This document shows, in pieces, positions 2,134 through 48,827 of a stretch of 64,000 nt of DNA (position 1 is its first letter; the number at the start of each line of letters is the position of its first letter). The translations under genes were made by a program, and so were the position numbers. The stretch lies in NCBI RefSeq assembly GCF_009734185.1, contig NZ_CP046393.1, positions 1,819,501-1,883,500 of the forward strand. Reading direction: 5' to 3'. A model generated the notes under the pieces. It was not told where the DNA came from, did not search any database, and worked only from the letters and a program-made list of their open reading frames with translations. This DNA is from Commensalibacter melissae. Lineage in GTDB: Bacteria; Pseudomonadota; Alphaproteobacteria; Acetobacterales; Acetobacteraceae.

Positions 2134-3945
2134 ATGACTGATACTACTTTATCATTAAAAGATACGTATCGTATCGTGGATCATGCCTATGACGTCATTG
2201 TCATAGGGGCTGGCGGTTCTGGCTTGCGGGCAACATTGGGAATGGGTGCGGCCGGTTTTCATACAGCCTGTATTACAAAAGTATTTCCAACCCGCAGTCA
2301 TACAACAGCAGCCCAGGGGGGAATTGCGGCTTCACTTGGAAATATGGGAGAGGATCACTGGCAATGGCACATGTACGATACCGTAAAGGGCTCTGACTGG
2401 CTTGGTGATCAGGACGCAATTGAATATTTATGCCGTGAAGCGGTTCCTGCCGTTTATGAACTGGAACATATGGGAGTTCCCTTTACCAGGAATAAAGATG
2501 GTAAAATCTATCAACGTCCATTTGGTGGACACATGCGCGACTTCGGAAAGGAACCCGTTCAACGCGCTTGTGCTGCGGCAGACAGAACTGGTCACGCTAT
2601 ATTGCATACACTTTATCAACAATGCTTGAAACACAATGTTGAATTCTTTGTTGAATATTTTGCTATTGATCTTATCATGGATGAAAATGGCACATGTCGC
2701 GGTGTTACGGCATGGTGTCTGGAGGATGGCAGTATACACCGTTTCCGTGCAAATCTGGTTGTTCTGGCGACAGGAGGATATGGACGCGCTTTTCAATCCT
2801 GTACTTCTGCCCATACTTGTACAGGTGATGGAAATGCCATGGTCATGCGTGCTGGCATCCCAACACAGGATATGGAATTCGTTCAATTCCATCCAACCGG
2901 TATTTTCCCAGCCGGCTGTTTGTTAACAGAAGGATGTCGCGGAGAAGGCGGCTATCTGACAAACAGTGAAGGTGAACGTTTCATGGAACGTTATGCGCCA
3001 CATGCAAAGGACCTTGCTTCTCGTGACGTTGTCTCTCGTGCCATGATTGTGGAAATCAATGAAGGACGCGGATGTGGTCCCAATAAAGATCACATCATGT
3101 TACATCTTGAACATCTGGGGGCAGACCTTTTACACGAACGTTTACCTAGTATTGTTGAAACATCGCGCATTTTCTCCGGAATTGATGTAACCAAGGAACC
3201 CGTTCCTGTATTACCAACTGTCCATTATAATATGGGTGGTATCCCAACAAATCTTCAGGCCGAAGTTATTCGACCTACCAAAGACAATCCAGATGCAACC
3301 GTTCCGGGATTAATGGCAATCGGTGAATGTGCCTGTGTTTCCGTTCATGGTGCAAACCGCCTTGGTACGAATTCATTACTTGACTTGATTGTATTTGGTC
3401 GTGCAGCTGCCTTACGTGCAAAAGATATTCTTAAACCTGGCGCTCCTGTTGCTCCATTCCCTAAAAATGCCGGGGAAAATGCACTTGGCCGTTTAGATAA
3501 ACTAAGATTTGCCAAAGGTGGAACCCGTGTGGCTCAAATGCGTGACACCCTGCAAAGAACCATGCAACGTCATGCAGCCGTTTTCCGGAATACTAAAAAC
3601 ATGGAAGCGGGCGTTGAAAAGATTAAGGATATCTGGTCTGATCTGGGGGACATCTCTGTTTCCGATCAATCCCTGATTTGGAATACAGATTTAATGGAAG
3701 CCTTGGAATTCGAGAATCTATTGGCAAATGGTACCGTAACCATGGTAAGTGCAACCGCACGTCATGAAAGTCGTGGCGCACATGCCCATGATGATTATCC
3801 TGAACGTGACGATAAAAACTGGTTGAAACATACTGTTTCATATCTTAATGACAAGGGAGAGGTTTCACTTGATTATCGCCCAGTCCATATGAGAACTTTA
3901 ACCGATGAAGTTCAGGTTTTCCCTCCTAAAAAACGGGTATATTAA
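2134..3945 (+). CDS. sdhA: Succinate dehydrogenase flavoprotein subunit
   Basis: Catalytic subunit that oxidises succinate to fumarate on a covalently bound FAD. The 603 residues match the family length. The dinucleotide loop GAGGSG is at 25-30. The flavin-linking histidine is His56 in the SHTTAAQGG motif. Substrate-site blocks [21 protein letters not shown] and [10 protein letters not shown] are present, and the capping/C-terminal domain ends in KKRVY. AAAGGA lies upstream of the ATG, and sdhB begins 19 bases after the stop. The subunit looks fully functional, unlike the disrupted sdhB next to it. Confidence 0.97.
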
Positions 3946-3964: not shown

Positions 3965-4746
3965 ATGGTTGAATTAAGACTACCCAAAAACAGTAAAATT
4001 GGAATTGGAAAAGTATTTTATGCCTCTTCACAGGCAAAAAATATTAAGAAATTTAGAATCTATCGTTGGAGCCCTGATGATAACAAAAATCCAGTTATCG
4101 ACACTTACGAGGTGGATCTGGACAAAATCGGCCCAATGGTTTTAGACGCGTTAATTCATATTAAGAATGAAATTGATCCGACTTTATCATTCCGTCGTTC
4201 TTGCCGTGAAGGGGTTTGCGGATCTTGTGCCATGAACATTAACGGATTAAATACCTTAGCCTGTTCAAAACACATTAATGAATATGAGGGGGATATTGCA
4301 ATTTATCCTCTCCCCCATATGCCCGTTATTAAGGATTTGATACCTGATCTTAATGGTCCATATGCACAATTGAGGGAAATTGATCCATGGCTTAAAGCTG
4401 ATACTCCCCCCCCCCCGATAAAGAACGGTTACAATCCATTGAGGAGCGTAAAAAACTGGATGGTTTATATGAATGTATCCTGTGTTTTTGCTGTTCAACC
4501 TCTTGCCCTTCATATTGGTGGAACGGGGACCAATATTTAGGCCCATCCGTTTTATTGGCTGCCATGCGTTGGGTTGCTGATAGCCGTGATGAGTATAAAG
4601 GCGAACGCCTTGATGAATTAGAGGATTCAATGCGTTTGTATGCATGCCGTACTATTATGAACTGTACACAGACCTGTCCAAAAGGTCTTAATCCAGCTCA
4701 TGCAATTGCTGAATTGAAAAGATTACAAATTGAACGTAAACTTTAA
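3965..4746 (+). pseudogene. sdhB: Succinate dehydrogenase iron-sulfur subunit, frameshifted in a poly-C tract
   Basis: Should carry electrons from FAD to quinone through three Fe-S clusters. The first frame (3965 to a stop at 4540) has the [2Fe-2S] ligands in CREGVCGSC and the later LAC. It reads correctly to ADTPPPP and then leaves frame. The missing part is in another frame: [20 protein letters not shown] follows the C run, then [12 protein letters not shown], and the ORF ending at 4746 has [17 protein letters not shown]. One extra C (12 instead of 11) restores a normal-length protein. As written, the product lacks the [4Fe-4S] and [3Fe-4S] clusters and gains an unrelated tail. Possible explanations are a homopolymer sequencing error, slippage-based variation or a true mutation. 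Intact neighbours favour a recent or artefactual event. Confidence 0.9.
4406..4416 (+). repeat. Eleven-C homopolymer inside sdhB
   Basis: An uninterrupted run of 11 C in otherwise AT-rich DNA, encoding the proline stretch of the SdhB interdomain linker. The reading frame breaks exactly here. Such tracts are prone to replication and transcription slippage and also to sequencing miscounts. Confidence 0.95.
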
Positions 4747-12181: not shown

Positions 12182-12329
12182 ATCTTCCTTTTTTTTCTCC
12201 ATTATCCAGCAACTGTCTGAATCTATAAAAGAAAAGTAAGATCAAACAATTTTCATTTTTTTTATTTAACGACAGGTTTAATATGCCAAAGATATTTTAA
12301 CCATCTTTGATATAAATCCATGCTCAATT

Positions 12330-14006
12330 ATGACAAGTGAAAATTTATTTGAAATCTCTGTACCTCTTATTAACGAGACCACCAAGAATGTTTCCACTAA
12401 AATCACTTTAGATAAAAGGGAGGCAATTTATATTGTTGGAGCGAATGGTTCCGGTAAAACCCATCTGGCACGATATATTGAACAATATATTATCCAAAAC
12501 TACGGTAAATATAAAACATATCGTATCAATGCACACCGTGCAATATTTTTAAATATTCCCCAAACTCAAATGAAAGAAGCACAAGCAAAACAAGCTTTGT
12601 TACCTAATCCAATAAGCCAATTATCAAGAAAAAATCAAGCTAATAGATTAACTAGTCAATTTGGTCAATTAGAATTTTACAATGATAGTGACGAGTTATT
12701 ACAATACCTATTTTCACAATCACATAGTATTGCCACGAATTTTTATAATGATTACAACCCTAATCGTCCTCCTTTACAAAAACCGACAAGCAAACTTGAG
12801 CAACTACAATCCATATTTGAAAAGATCCTCCCTAATAAACAATTAGAACACACCATAGATACAATTCGAATTAAGGATACCGATAAAGAAGATTATTACC
12901 CCATTATAGAAGCAAGTGAGGGAGAACGTTCTGTTTTTTATTTAATCGGTCAAATCCTTTTTCCGGATCCTGGTACCCTGATTATTTTTGATGAACCTGA
13001 ACAACATTTACATCCTTCCATCTTAACACCACTATGGAATGAACTGAAAAAAATACGTCCAGATTGTGCTTTTATAACCATTTCACACGATTTAAATTTT
13101 ATCGCCAATCAGGCAGGAAAAAAATATATTCTCAAAAAATACCAAAGAAATTTTTCTGAATCTGATAAATGGGATATAAAAGCGCTTCCAGATAATATGC
13201 CGTTATCAGAGGAAATTGTTACTTTGATTTTGGGTAGTCGTCGTCCCATTCTCTTTGTTGAGGGACAGGAAAACAGTTTAGATCAAGCTGTTTACCGCGC
13301 ATGTTATCCAGAATGGACAATTATTCCAAGCAATTCATGTACAGAAGTTATTCATGCGGTTAATTCGCTTAACAACCATCCATCTTTAACTCGTATTAAT
13401 TGTGCGGGTATCGTGGATGCTGATTATCGTGGTACAGATGAAATACAAAAACTGAATAATCAAAATATTTATGTGCTCAACGTCCTTGAAATTGAAAATC
13501 TTTTCTTATTATATGATGTTCTCGAGAGTATTGCTGAACTAGAGCAATATAACGATAAAACGGAAAAAGAAAATCTGATTCAAGAGATAACCTCTCAACT
13601 TCTCGATACTATCAATAAAAATAGAAATTCGTATATCGTGGAATATGGAAAATTACAATTAGGCAGATCATTTTCTAAACTTTCACCTTCTGATGATAAA
13701 ATCAAGAAGCAGGAATCTTTAATTGAATTTTTTAACAAAAGCCTTGATGAATTAAAAAATTCTTTTCAAGAAGATCTACAAAAAACTGAATACAATATTA
13801 ACAAAGCAATTGAGGAAAAAAATATAAAAGAGCTATTAAAATGGTATAATGGCAAAGGTGAAAGATTATCAATTATCAGCAAAATCTTAACGAAACAAAA
13901 AAAGGAAGATTTTCTTAAATGGATAAAACGCTTACTAGAAAATAGTAATGAAAATTTGATTGATGTATTAAAAAAACATTTACCAGAAATAAAAAATAAT
14001 GTCTGA
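12330..14006 (+). CDS. AAA ATPase-DUF4435 (TOPRIM-like) protein, candidate defence effector
   Basis: Single 558-residue protein. The N-terminal ATPase is ABC/SMC-like: Walker A GANGSGKT (37-44), signature-like ASEGER (195-200), Walker B LIIFDE (217-222), EQHLHP, and an H-loop His253. The C-terminal half begins RRPILFVEGQENS (304-316) with Glu311, then VDADYRGTDE with Asp363/Asp365, and EIENLF. This is the DUF4435/TOPRIM-like arrangement of OLD-family nucleases and of AriB. A long charged coiled-coil tail follows (about 405-550). ATPase plus DUF4435 recalls the PARIS pair AriA-AriB fused in one chain, but the ATPase part is shorter. It stands alone with its own promoter region next to a tRNA gene, and its base composition is more AT-rich than its neighbours. 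The defence role is inferred. Confidence 0.75.
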   Translation: MTSENLFEISVPLINETTKNVSTKITLDKREAIYIVGANGSGKTHLARYIEQYIIQNYGKYKTYRINAHRAIFLNIPQTQMKEAQAKQALLPNPISQLSRKNQANRLTSQFGQLEFYNDSDELLQYLFSQSHSIATNFYNDYNPNRPPLQKPTSKLEQLQSIFEKILPNKQLEHTIDTIRIKDTDKEDYYPIIEASEGERSVFYLIGQILFPDPGTLIIFDEPEQHLHPSILTPLWNELKKIRPDCAFITISHDLNFIANQAGKKYILKKYQRNFSESDKWDIKALPDNMPLSEEIVTLILGSRRPILFVEGQENSLDQAVYRACYPEWTIIPSNSCTEVIHAVNSLNNHPSLTRINCAGIVDADYRGTDEIQKLNNQNIYVLNVLEIENLFLLYDVLESIAELEQYNDKTEKENLIQEITSQLLDTINKNRNSYIVEYGKLQLGRSFSKLSPSDDKIKKQESLIEFFNKSLDELKNSFQEDLQKTEYNINKAIEEKNIKELLKWYNGKGERLSIISKILTKQKKEDFLKWIKRLLENSNENLIDVLKKHLPEIKNNV

Positions 14007-14030: not shown

Positions 14031-14117
14031 TGGTGCGAACTGTGGGACTTGAACCCACACGTCCAAAACGGACACAAGATTTTAAGTCTTGAGCGTCTAC
14101 CATTCCGCCAAGCTCGC
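14031..14117 (-). tRNA. tRNA-Leu (anticodon UAA)
   Basis: Read on the minus strand, the acceptor GCGAGCT pairs with AGTTCGC, allowing one G-U. The D-arm is GGCGGAATGGTAGACGC. The anticodon stem is CAAGA/TCTTG with loop CTTAAAA, giving UAA. A long variable arm follows, as in leucine tRNAs, then the T-arm GTGGG TTCAAGT CCCAC and an encoded CCA (14031-14033). It lies 25 bases beyond the AAA-DUF4435 gene on the opposite strand. Confidence 0.96.
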
Positions 14118-16327: not shown

Positions 16328-16379
16328 AAATATGATACAGCCTTATCCAAAAAAAGAAACATCAGTAAAGGAAATCTCT

Positions 16380-19035: not shown

Positions 19036-20826
19036 ATGAATAATGATTATAATAAGATTAAAATATCTATAATAGGATTGGGATCAAGAGGCCTCAACGT
19101 ACTTGAAAGAATTATATCCCATTGTATTTGGGATGAGAAACTAAAAGATAAGCAGATTATTTTACAACTATTTAACGAAAATAAAGATTATGGTGCCGGT
19201 TGTCATGATATCAATCAATCAGAAAATTTATTAGTTAACACTATTTGCAGTCAGATTACTGTTTTCCCTGATGATACGGTTAAAAACTACAAATATGCAA
19301 TCCGGGGACCAACCTTTTATGAATGGTTAAAAATCAAATATAAATCACAAAATAAAACAATCAACCCTTTAAACTATTATTCACGAAAGGATCTTGGCGA
19401 ATACCTATGCTGGGTCTTTAATTATTTATGTTCTATCAAGGTACAAAACCTTCAGATCATCAAAATACAAGAAAAAGTTATAAACATTTTCGGAAGTGAT
19501 AAAAAAAAATGGAATATCGTTACGAAAAATAATACTTACTCATCTGATATTATTTGTATAACCACCGGTCACGATACCCAAAATTGCGAATTTCCAAATA
19601 AGAAAAAAATATATGCTTATCCTTTGGAAAAATTAGACCATATCATTACGAATAAAGAAACCGTTGCAATACAGGGACTTGGCTTGACCACATTTGACGT
19701 TATTTCCAAATTGACTGAAGACAGAGGAGGGAAATTCATTAAGGAAAAAGACCACCTAATCTATCAACCCTCTGGAAAAGAACCTAAAATTATAGCTTTT
19801 TCCAGATCAGGATTACCCTTGAATGCACGGGGGATAACGCAAAAAGAATTAAGAGAACAATACAAGCCCCAAATTTTTACCAAAGAAAAAATAATTAAGT
19901 TAAAAAACAATAAAAAAAATGATTTTGAAAAAGATTATCTACCGTTATTGATTGAAGAAATGGAATGTGTTTACAGTTTTACCTACCTCAAAAATCAGGA
20001 CATAATCAAAGCATATAATTTCCTTAATGACTACCTAAGAAACAAATCACAAAGAAACGCGATTGTAAAAGCCTATATTCCTGATGAAAAAGAAAGATTC
20101 TCATGGGAAAAAATTAGCGATCCGCTTGCCCATACTTCCTTCAAAAGCCAGAGAGAATTTCATGAATGGCTTTTAAACTATTTACAGGAAGATATACATA
20201 ACGCTTTACAGGGCAATATAGACAATCCCACCAAGGCAAGCACTGATATTTTAAGGGATGTACGTGATTGGATCAGATTAACCGTTGACCATTGTGGCCT
20301 GTCGGAAAAAAGTGCTATCTGGTTCAATGAAGTATTTAAACCTATCATGATCCGAATTTGTGTTGGTCCACCTCTTGAGAGGATTCAACAAATGATCGCT
20401 TTAATCAAGGCCAACATATTGCGCATAGATTTGGGACCGAATGTTAAAGTAGAAGAAAAAAAGGAAAGCTTTTACCTAACAACACAATTTAACGAAGTCA
20501 TGCGTGCTGATTATTATATTGTTGCCATGGTCAATGCACCCATTGCAAAGGAAAGCAAAGACATTTTTTTTCAAAATATCCTGAAAAACAATATAGGCTG
20601 TCAATTCCATATTGGCAATTATGCTCTAGGAGAATTTAATGTCAATGCAAACTTCAATTTGATCAATCAAAACAATCAGATAATCAAGTCTATTTATGCT
20701 CTAGGTGTTCCCACTGAAGGCAGTAAATTTTATACTTATATTTTACCAAGACCTTTTGTTAATTCGACAGCTTTATTTGATGCAGAAGTCTGTACCAATA
20801 ATTTGTTATCGCAAATTGCCAGATAA
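19036..20826 (+). CDS. FAD/NAD(P)-binding protein (NAD_binding_9 family)
   Basis: Large protein (596 residues) with an N-terminal Rossmann motif GLGSRGLNVLERI (14-26) and the sequence NENKDYGAGCHDINQSENLLVN. Later motifs are IICITTGHDTQ (second nucleotide-binding edge) and VAIQGLGLTTFDVISKL. This fits the COG4529-like FAD-NAD(P)-binding group. A conserved C-terminal block includes IYALGVPTEGSKFYTYILPRPFVNS. It is Lys/Asn-rich and more AT-rich than neighbouring housekeeping genes, possibly acquired. Its reaction is unknown. A possible partnership with the flanking NMO-type flavoproteins is inferred only from position. Confidence 0.6.
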   Translation: MNNDYNKIKISIIGLGSRGLNVLERIISHCIWDEKLKDKQIILQLFNENKDYGAGCHDINQSENLLVNTICSQITVFPDDTVKNYKYAIRGPTFYEWLKIKYKSQNKTINPLNYYSRKDLGEYLCWVFNYLCSIKVQNLQIIKIQEKVINIFGSDKKKWNIVTKNNTYSSDIICITTGHDTQNCEFPNKKKIYAYPLEKLDHIITNKETVAIQGLGLTTFDVISKLTEDRGGKFIKEKDHLIYQPSGKEPKIIAFSRSGLPLNARGITQKELREQYKPQIFTKEKIIKLKNNKKNDFEKDYLPLLIEEMECVYSFTYLKNQDIIKAYNFLNDYLRNKSQRNAIVKAYIPDEKERFSWEKISDPLAHTSFKSQREFHEWLLNYLQEDIHNALQGNIDNPTKASTDILRDVRDWIRLTVDHCGLSEKSAIWFNEVFKPIMIRICVGPPLERIQQMIALIKANILRIDLGPNVKVEEKKESFYLTTQFNEVMRADYYIVAMVNAPIAKESKDIFFQNILKNNIGCQFHIGNYALGEFNVNANFNLINQNNQIIKSIYALGVPTEGSKFYTYILPRPFVNSTALFDAEVCTNNLLSQIAR

Positions 20827-29806: not shown

Positions 29807-30235
29807 TTATTGATTTTCTTTTTCAAGGTCTCTCAAAACTTCCGGACTATTCAGCACTGCATCAATCTTAGCTGCATAGTCCAAAGTTGTATCAGGCTGA
29901 AATCTCAAATCAGGTAAAAATTTAAGTCTAATTTTTTGTGACAGCTGGTTTCTCAAATAAGGTGCAACTCGTTTTAACGCAGGTAAAAAATCCCCTACAT
30001 CACTTTTCCCTAAGTGAGAAATATATACAATTGCATGACGCAAATCAGGCGTCATGCGCACTTCCGTTACTGTAAATTTCTGTCCCTGAAGTTCAGGCAC
30101 ACGAAATTCGATCCGGATAAATAAATCTGCCAAAATATGCCTGATTTCTTCAGCAACGCGCAATTGCCGTTGAGAAGGGCCTTTTTTTGAATCCTTTTTC
30201 AAAAAATCCTTCCCAGTTACTATAAATTTATCCAT
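29807..30235 (-). CDS. rbfA: 30S ribosome-binding factor A
   Basis: Cold-shock and 16S rRNA maturation factor with a KH-like fold. SQRQLRVAEEIRHILAD at the start, VTEVRMTPDLRHAIVYIS and the LRFQPDTTLD motif near the end are diagnostic. It starts at the ATG at 30235, sharing one base with the infB stop (TGATG), so translation is coupled. A TTG one codon upstream is an artefact of frame extension. The C-terminal tail is acidic. Confidence 0.95.
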   Translation of the reverse strand: MDKFIVTGKDFLKKDSKKGPSQRQLRVAEEIRHILADLFIRIEFRVPELQGQKFTVTEVRMTPDLRHAIVYISHLGKSDVGDFLPALKRVAPYLRNQLSQKIRLKFLPDLRFQPDTTLDYAAKIDAVLNSPEVLRDLEKENQ

Positions 30236-39002: not shown

Positions 39003-39623
39003 ATGACCGTATCTATTGTCAATCTAACCACATTTCGAAATGAAAAACTGGTCCTGAACAATATCAATTTTTCTCTATCTGCAGGGGAAAGTCTCTGTAT
39101 CCATGGTCCAAATGGCGTTGGCAAAAGTACGTTATTAAGAATTCTCGCAGGGTTCAGAAAACCAGATTCAGGTAATGTTTTATGGAACTCCAGAAACATC
39201 TTTGAACATCATGAAACTTATGAAAATTATCTTCAAACTATTGCCTGGTTGGGTCATTCAAACGCCTTAAAACCGATTATGACTGTGAGAGAGAACCTGC
39301 AATTATATTCAAAATTTTACAAAACCAATCTTCACGATTGTTTGAAAAAATTTAATTTATACCATTTAATTGATACTCCCGTTCGATTATTATCCGCTGG
39401 TCAAAAACGTCGCACAGCCCTGGCTCGCATTTTGCTTAAACCTGCAACAATTTGGTTGCTAGATGAACCAACCGTTGGATTGGATAGAGAAAACATGATC
39501 AATCTTGCTGAAATATTTGCCTCTTTTCAAAAAAACGGTGGCATGATTTTAGTCAGTACACATACAGATCTTCCATTGATCAACACAAAATCTCTTAATC
39601 TTTCACTTCCTTCCTTACATTAA
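39003..39623 (+). CDS. ccmA: Haem exporter ATP-binding protein CcmA
   Basis: ATPase of the CcmABCD system for cytochrome c maturation, used to release holo-CcmE. Walker A GPNGVGKST is at 35-43, the signature is LSAGQKRRTALARI (about 131-144), and Walker B is IWLLDEPTVGLD. At 206 residues it is typical of CcmA and shorter than most ABC ATPases. ccmB follows 12 bases later. Other ccm genes are not in the window. Confidence 0.93.
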   Translation: MTVSIVNLTTFRNEKLVLNNINFSLSAGESLCIHGPNGVGKSTLLRILAGFRKPDSGNVLWNSRNIFEHHETYENYLQTIAWLGHSNALKPIMTVRENLQLYSKFYKTNLHDCLKKFNLYHLIDTPVRLLSAGQKRRTALARILLKPATIWLLDEPTVGLDRENMINLAEIFASFQKNGGMILVSTHTDLPLINTKSLNLSLPSLH

Positions 39624-48518: not shown

Positions 48519-48827
48519 ATGAAAAAACTGTTTTTTTTACTAGCAACCACGGGATTACTAGCCGGATGTGCGGGTGGTAAATCACCAGTGGGACTAGCTT
48601 TAATCAGTAATGTAAAAGGCCCTATTTCAGCAACTGATCACACTGTCACCTCAAAAAAAGGTGCAAGTTGTGCCCACAATCTACTAGGTATTGTTGCAAG
48701 CGGAGATGCATCAATTGATTCTGCCAAAAAGAAGGCAGGCATAACAAAAGTTTCTTCTGTTGATTATAAAACCACAGGTATTTTCCCTTTTTATGGAAAA
48801 ACCTGTGTCAATGTAAAAGGGGAATAA
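48519..48827 (+). CDS. TRL-like family lipoprotein
   Basis: Protein of 102 residues with a lipoprotein signal peptide and lipobox LLAGC (Cys17). The mature part includes KGPISATDHTVTSKKGASC, NLLGIVASGDASIDSAKKKAGI and YGKTCVNVKG, matching the TRL (tRNA-associated locus) family of small lipoproteins. It is unknown in function and probably lies in the outer membrane or periplasm. It is transcribed alone. Confidence 0.8.
   Translation: MKKLFFLLATTGLLAGCAGGKSPVGLALISNVKGPISATDHTVTSKKGASCAHNLLGIVASGDASIDSAKKKAGITKVSSVDYKTTGIFPFYGKTCVNVKGE

Follow-up and report, generated by a model that had tools for sequence, protein, structure and literature searches.

C or G tracts of the length described here are usual substrates of phase variation. 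Such poly-G and poly-C tracts are found in the pmpG genes of Chlamydia (PMC6740158, excerpt), and homopolymeric A and T tracts within genes have been argued to be a general device for reversible inactivation, with rates of change raised about 1,000-fold (PMC2831843, excerpt). In insect endosymbionts, frameshifts in poly-A/T homopolymers can be rescued through slippage of RNA polymerase or the ribosome (PMC3017870, excerpt). For the genus Commensalibacter, all of the genes of the tricarboxylic acid cycle have been reported to be present, and the genomes of AMU001 and ESL0284 are named as complete (PMC10149009, excerpt). The AMU001 assembly was built from Nanopore and Illumina reads (PMC6318369), and an Illumina draft of ESL0284 comprises 1,948,862 bases in 13 contigs (PMC6211356, excerpt). 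A count of gene presence, it should be noted, could pass over a frameshift.

A frameshift of this kind is recorded in the sdhCDAB locus of Commensalibacter melissae, within the 64,000-base stretch of contig NZ_CP046393.1 that was analysed and that is called the window below. All features of the locus lie on the + strand. The genes for the cytochrome b556 subunit, sdhC (1176-1628, 150 aa), the membrane anchor, sdhD (1693-2106, 137 aa), and the flavoprotein, sdhA (2134-3945, 603 aa), are intact, as had been read from the sequence originally, and each scores above its NCBIfam cut-off (TIGR02970, 97.9 bits against 52.3; TIGR02968, 58.6 against 41.8; TIGR01816, 968.9 against 727.35). The gene for the iron-sulfur subunit, sdhB, is in two pieces. 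The first (3965-4405) is in frame, carries the [2Fe-2S] domain (PF13085, 4.7e-35) and matches the SdhB chains of known structures. It is followed by an unbroken run of 11 C (4406-4416), exactly the number given in the original prediction, and there the frame is lost. The open frame continues through a tail of 40 aa (4417-4540) that has no counterpart in the SdhB of AMU001, and it ends at a stop; the resulting frame of 191 aa (3965-4540) therefore consists of about 151 aa of SdhB and 40 aa of a foreign frame.

The remainder of sdhB lies in another frame and runs to the natural stop (4417-4746). Its 109 aa (4417-4743) form a cysteine-rich dicluster domain, with Pfam matches to Fer4_8 (PF13183, 1.5e-10) and Fer4_17, and they match the SdhB chains of known complex II structures (1yq3_B, 6e-51); the earlier claim that the rest of the gene continues out of register is thus borne out. 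From general knowledge of complex II and from the cysteine motifs of this piece, we take it to hold the ligands of the two other clusters. Both domains of an SdhB, 2Fe-2S and dicluster, are consequently present in different frames; no single open reading frame containing both was found, since the 191-aa frame stops before the dicluster domain. When this frame is scored alone, it exceeds the cut-off of the broad model TIGR00384 (134.2 bits against 88) and falls below that of the succinate-specific model PRK05950 (170.4 against 228). A second sdhB elsewhere in the genome was considered and rejected, because a search of the genome returned a single match.

In relatives, sdhB is whole. The closest genome compared, that of C. 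melissae AMU001 from honey bees (NZ_CP033087.1), is 99.0% identical across the window and 99.3% identical over 6,574 columns at this locus, and its SdhB is an uninterrupted protein of 260 aa. Another genome of the species, G061, does not differ from AMU001 over a stretch of 4,000 bases and was counted as that strain. At the tract, the alignment of the two strains contains one gap and one mismatch: the stretch recorded here is one base shorter, and the C stretch of AMU001 is interrupted by a T, so that its longest run is 9. A match to sdhB is present in 52 of the 59 relatives searched (53 of 60 when this genome itself is counted), and in all 52 the best match lies in an open frame of at least 255 aa, which is what the alignment with related genomes proposed in the original prediction yields. 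Five of the seven relatives that have no match (G014, G020, G037, G052, G056, G058 and G059) are less than 90% complete. Four prolines occupy the site of the tract in 20 of the 29 best-scoring relatives read there; these 20 include all seven other genomes of the genus, which use mixed proline codons at this place. A long tract was found at the site in none of the eight other Commensalibacter genomes (AMU001 plus these seven). Because the run is interrupted in AMU001 and the other seven have mixed codons, this genome is the only one of those examined that has the tract.

How unusual is such a run? It is the only C or G run of at least 10 bases in a single-contig genome of 1,960,656 bases. A first-order model based on the composition of the window predicts 0.58 runs of at least 11 where one is observed. 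Under the same model, runs of at least 8 are fewer than expected (17 observed, 34.5 expected); the other 16, of 8 or 9 bases, each sit within an open frame, with frame lengths from 156 to 835 aa that are in some cases clipped by the ends of the stretch taken, and they fall mostly in glycine or proline codons. The original prediction had leaned on the rarity of a long C tract in an AT-rich genome, and here it overstated the case: the G+C content of the window is 38%, of the 770 proline codons in the frames counted, 156 are CCC, and four prolines are common at this position (20 of 29 relatives). A run of 11 C is not surprising by itself; what is notable is the broken frame in a conserved gene.

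These observations are best explained if the tract is an accident of codon choice rather than a device. Four consecutive prolines, common in the SdhB of this group, would have acquired codons made up of almost nothing but C. Long runs of C are easily miscounted, both by DNA polymerase and by sequencing, and a recorded stretch one base short relative to AMU001 would then place the second half of sdhB out of frame. It is very probable that this accidental C run has a recorded length that is off register, either through a base-count error or through a fresh slip in the sequenced clone; between these two, the odds are about even. An error or a very recent slip is indicated because the gene has no other damage. 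Counting should also fail first at this run, as no C or G run in the genome is longer; the gene is otherwise perfect, and a full set of cycle genes is reported for Commensalibacter genomes. The break and its position, the intact sdhB of relatives, the lack of further decay and a tract that is not conserved are all observed directly; slippage as the cause, and the cell or the sequencing as its place, are what we infer here.

One finding speaks against an error, namely that the assembly is otherwise clean when compared with AMU001. The window's 64,000 bases yield 30 indel entries, and a further 119,042 aligned bases yield 19. Judged on frames of at least 50 aa in the window and at least 80 aa in the further bases, and with one entry at the edge of a stretch in the latter (stretch position 39598) set aside, no broken gene interior was seen across these 183 kb in this genome apart from that of sdhB. 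The other indels are outside the frames considered, keep or restore the frame, or make a difference of 4 or 5 aa to a frame, and the last were taken as gene ends. Those that keep the frame or are compensated include 13 in a gene at 12330-14006, a pair at 20148 and 20153, and three-base gaps at 30182 and in the further bases. An indel at 16347 is upstream of the conserved start of a gene that, from its sequence, we presume to be purD-like. Short frames seen in one genome only, at 12189 (83 aa, in AMU001, opposite a 509-aa gene), 17673 and 24795, were taken as spurious. General homopolymer noise in the assembly is therefore unsupported, as the indels other than that of sdhB break no gene interior, and a record that is clean elsewhere speaks against careless assembly.

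Two other places in this comparison deserve mention in their own right. At 48519-48827, this genome has a small, open lipoprotein-like frame of 102 aa; in AMU001 one A is missing just after the start codon (the indel at 48522) and the frame is absent. The gene at 12330-14006, which encodes a protein of 558 aa and is named ATPase-like from its sequence motifs, carries 13 of the 30 indel entries of the window. Near its stop, AMU001 has a direct duplication of 19 bases at 13983, adjoining a tRNA gene (14034-14117). To judge from its sequence, this ATPase-like gene is possibly a fast-evolving, defence-like one.

If the break is real, its age can be bounded. Outside the tract and the codon that precedes it, the sdhB genes of the two strains differ by three silent changes and by no amino-acid change, and the one difference in the second piece is silent. 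For comparison, 40 other frames of the window show a silent difference from AMU001 of 0.0237 per site and an amino-acid difference of 0.0028 per site; these frames are what remains of 45 of at least 150 aa that were chosen mechanically, after five, sdhB among them, were dropped because of gaps or the window edge. With branches of equal length and a neutral rate set to the silent one, an sdhB without constraint since the two strains split should have gathered about 7.2 amino-acid changes on this branch, and the chance of seeing none is 0.0008. By this calculation, a real break would be no older than about the final 42% of the branch. Such a break is thus recent, because no amino-acid change separates the two sequences outside the tract; a base-count error would have no age. 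The further lesions or relaxed selection that mark a decaying pseudogene were not found in sdhB, with its zero amino-acid and three silent changes.

This evidence bears directly on the proposal that the break is real and fixed in the population of the strain, as a first step of erosion in a reduced bee symbiont that has lost succinate dehydrogenase and runs a branched cycle as other insect acetic acid bacteria do. There are precedents for such a loss. Genes for succinate dehydrogenase were not identified in Bombella (PMC9147383, excerpt), Acetobacteraceae of the ant gut lack the enzymes of the cycle past succinyl-CoA (PMC6558740, excerpt), and in Chlamydia the genes for SDH subunits are repeatedly broken; of three C. 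muridarum genomes, one has its iron-sulfur gene frameshifted (PMC6740158, excerpt). Among 28 members of the family from other genera that were searched, two have no match to sdhB (G014, which is 86% complete, and G020, 99%), and the cleanness of the present genome elsewhere also favours a real change. However, sdhC, sdhD and sdhA are intact, and sdhB has neither a second lesion nor an amino-acid change relative to AMU001. Fumarase is kept, as is a member of the CoA-transferase family: fumC and a gene of the succinyl-CoA:acetate CoA-transferase family both score above their cut-offs in open frames. The species has also been reported with all genes of the cycle, though that count has the blind spot for frameshifts noted above (PMC10149009, excerpt). 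Otherwise the species looks built for a working complex II, and loss at the level of the lineage is judged very unlikely.

Long C or G tracts are not confined to this genome. Four of the seven other genomes of the genus contain 11 tracts of at least 10 bases between them; seven of these lie inside long open frames, three are at apparent frame changes, and one, of 17 C, is in no long frame. One example within an open frame is the 11-G run of a biotin carboxylase gene of 452 aa (L166, 1501-1511, G006:C1), an equally long tract in an unbroken core gene. Two of the frame changes concern a lipoprotein-like gene, which is split into two frames at a 10-G run in one genome (L134, 918-1689, G002:C1) and is split at an 11-G run in another, at the same place and six bases from the end of the contig (L170, 920-1517, G007:C5). 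In relatives within the genus, this genome included, members of this family have frames of about 261 to 285 aa. From these sequences, the lipoprotein-like family would be a better candidate than sdhB for a phase-variable surface gene family.

The third frame change occurs at a 10-C run (L169, 1278-1631, G007:C3) and is followed soon by further stops. The stretch past this run reads, by its motif, like what we take to be an acetyltransferase; no Pfam match was found for the 118-aa acetyltransferase-like frame, and the gene is probably a remnant. The 17-C run (L171, 1501-1517, G007:C8) may reflect either a flaw of the assembly or a switch of the promoter type. A frame of 342 aa ends about 300 bases from it and, by motif, resembles what is presumably a DNA cytosine methyltransferase.

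Loss of frame at long C runs thus does occur elsewhere in this genus, and a real slip in sdhB becomes believable on that account. The recurrence of such breaks, at the same place in two species in the case of the lipoprotein-like family, counts against a mere accident at sdhB, and C-run switching may exist in the genus Commensalibacter. It might then be asked whether the tract in sdhB is itself a contingency switch, at which replication slippage turns complex II on in some sub-populations and off in others. The undamaged state of the rest of sdhB agrees with this, as do the pmpG and A/T-tract precedents cited at the outset and the changes of frame at C runs of 10 and 11 at one place in the lipoprotein-like family of G002 and G007. 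Nevertheless, the long tract is absent from the site in eight other Commensalibacter genomes; sdhB encodes a housekeeping respiratory subunit rather than a surface structure; tracts of at least 8 are fewer than the simple model predicts (17 against 34.5); MutS and MutL are present; and seven of the 11 tracts of at least 10 in sister species are inside long open frames, that of the biotin carboxylase gene among them. A contingency locus would be expected to keep its tract, at varying length, at the same place in relatives, and no such tract was seen at sdhB in a comparison that includes one other strain of the species, AMU001. Because the sdhB tract is not kept, the breaks in the lipoprotein-like family do not make sdhB a switch, and a phase-variable respiration of this kind is considered most improbable.

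A narrower version supposes that the C run is newly formed and highly slippery, so that complex II would flip at a high rate in bee guts; sdhB would then be a contingency locus of recent and accidental origin within central respiration, and the genus also has frame breaks at C runs in its lipoprotein-like family. This idea is a long shot, put forward as speculation. Loss of mismatch repair was also considered as a cause of the break and is unsupported, since mutS and mutL are both in open frames and above their cut-offs.

It is also conceivable that the count in the DNA is real and that slippage of RNA polymerase or the ribosome at the tract yields some full-length SdhB. The downstream frame is clean, and rescue of poly-A/T frameshifts is described in the insect endosymbionts cited above (PMC3017870, excerpt). 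Against this, a study of E. coli and Buchnera found insertions during transcription only in runs of A or T; its authors infer that G/C runs are not prone to slippage, although C and G made up just 20% and 3% of the runs sequenced there (PMC5574713, excerpt). The run here is one of C, not of a base, A or T, at which transcription slips. In addition, the RNA just 3' of the tract is not unusually folded (z -1.33), and no relative examined shares the arrangement. Rescue by slippage is accordingly held to be extremely improbable. A programmed ribosomal frameshift can be rejected, since 25 of 200 shuffled sequences fold as well as the RNA after the tract and AMU001 needs no shift. Of the four options that accompanied the original prediction, phase variation and slippage rescue fare poorly, given a tract that is not kept in eight other genomes, the presence of mutS and mutL, and a run that is composed of C; real loss and base-count error stay as candidates.

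The consequences differ with the origin of the count. If it is true, the clone makes SdhC, SdhD and SdhA together with a 191-aa stub of SdhB that lacks the [4Fe-4S] and [3Fe-4S] part, and succinate dehydrogenase should be absent from it. The member of the CoA-transferase family could go on producing succinate, which complex II would not oxidise. Such a clone could be viable, because Bombella lives without an identified succinate dehydrogenase; the strain could not run the complete cycle of the species description, which would affect how experiments with it in bees are read. If the count is an error, complex II will be missing by mistake from metabolic models derived from the record. It would be unusual for central respiration to have a switch: no phase switch in sdhB was reported among the papers listed, and the excerpts of the literature searched hold no statement on the C count of this sdhB. 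The original observation is true and its cause is most likely ordinary, a slip at a chance run of C, in sequencing or in the cell.

Set beside described systems, the locus most resembles the sdhCDAB operon of AMU001, with 99% identical DNA and the same protein apart from the break; the difference is that AMU001 has an open frame of 260 aa and a T-interrupted C stretch, whereas in the window the run is of 11 C and sdhB is in two pieces in different frames. Like the poly-A/T frameshifts of Blochmannia, the break is a single indel in a mononucleotide run of an otherwise undamaged gene of an insect symbiont, but in Blochmannia the A/T runs are numerous and some of the frameshifts are shared between species, whereas here there is one C run in one genome (PMC3017870, excerpt). 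With the contingency loci of Chlamydia pmpG it shares a frameshift in a C/G tract without further decay; those tracts recur and vary in length over strains and paralogues, while that of sdhB is private and lies in a core metabolic gene (PMC6740158, excerpt). Finally, if the count is real, the strain would be, like Bombella, an acetic acid bacterium of bees that has no working complex II. In Bombella, however, the genes for succinate dehydrogenase, succinyl-CoA synthetase and malate dehydrogenase were not identified (PMC9147383, excerpt), whereas here the operon is complete except for one change of register.
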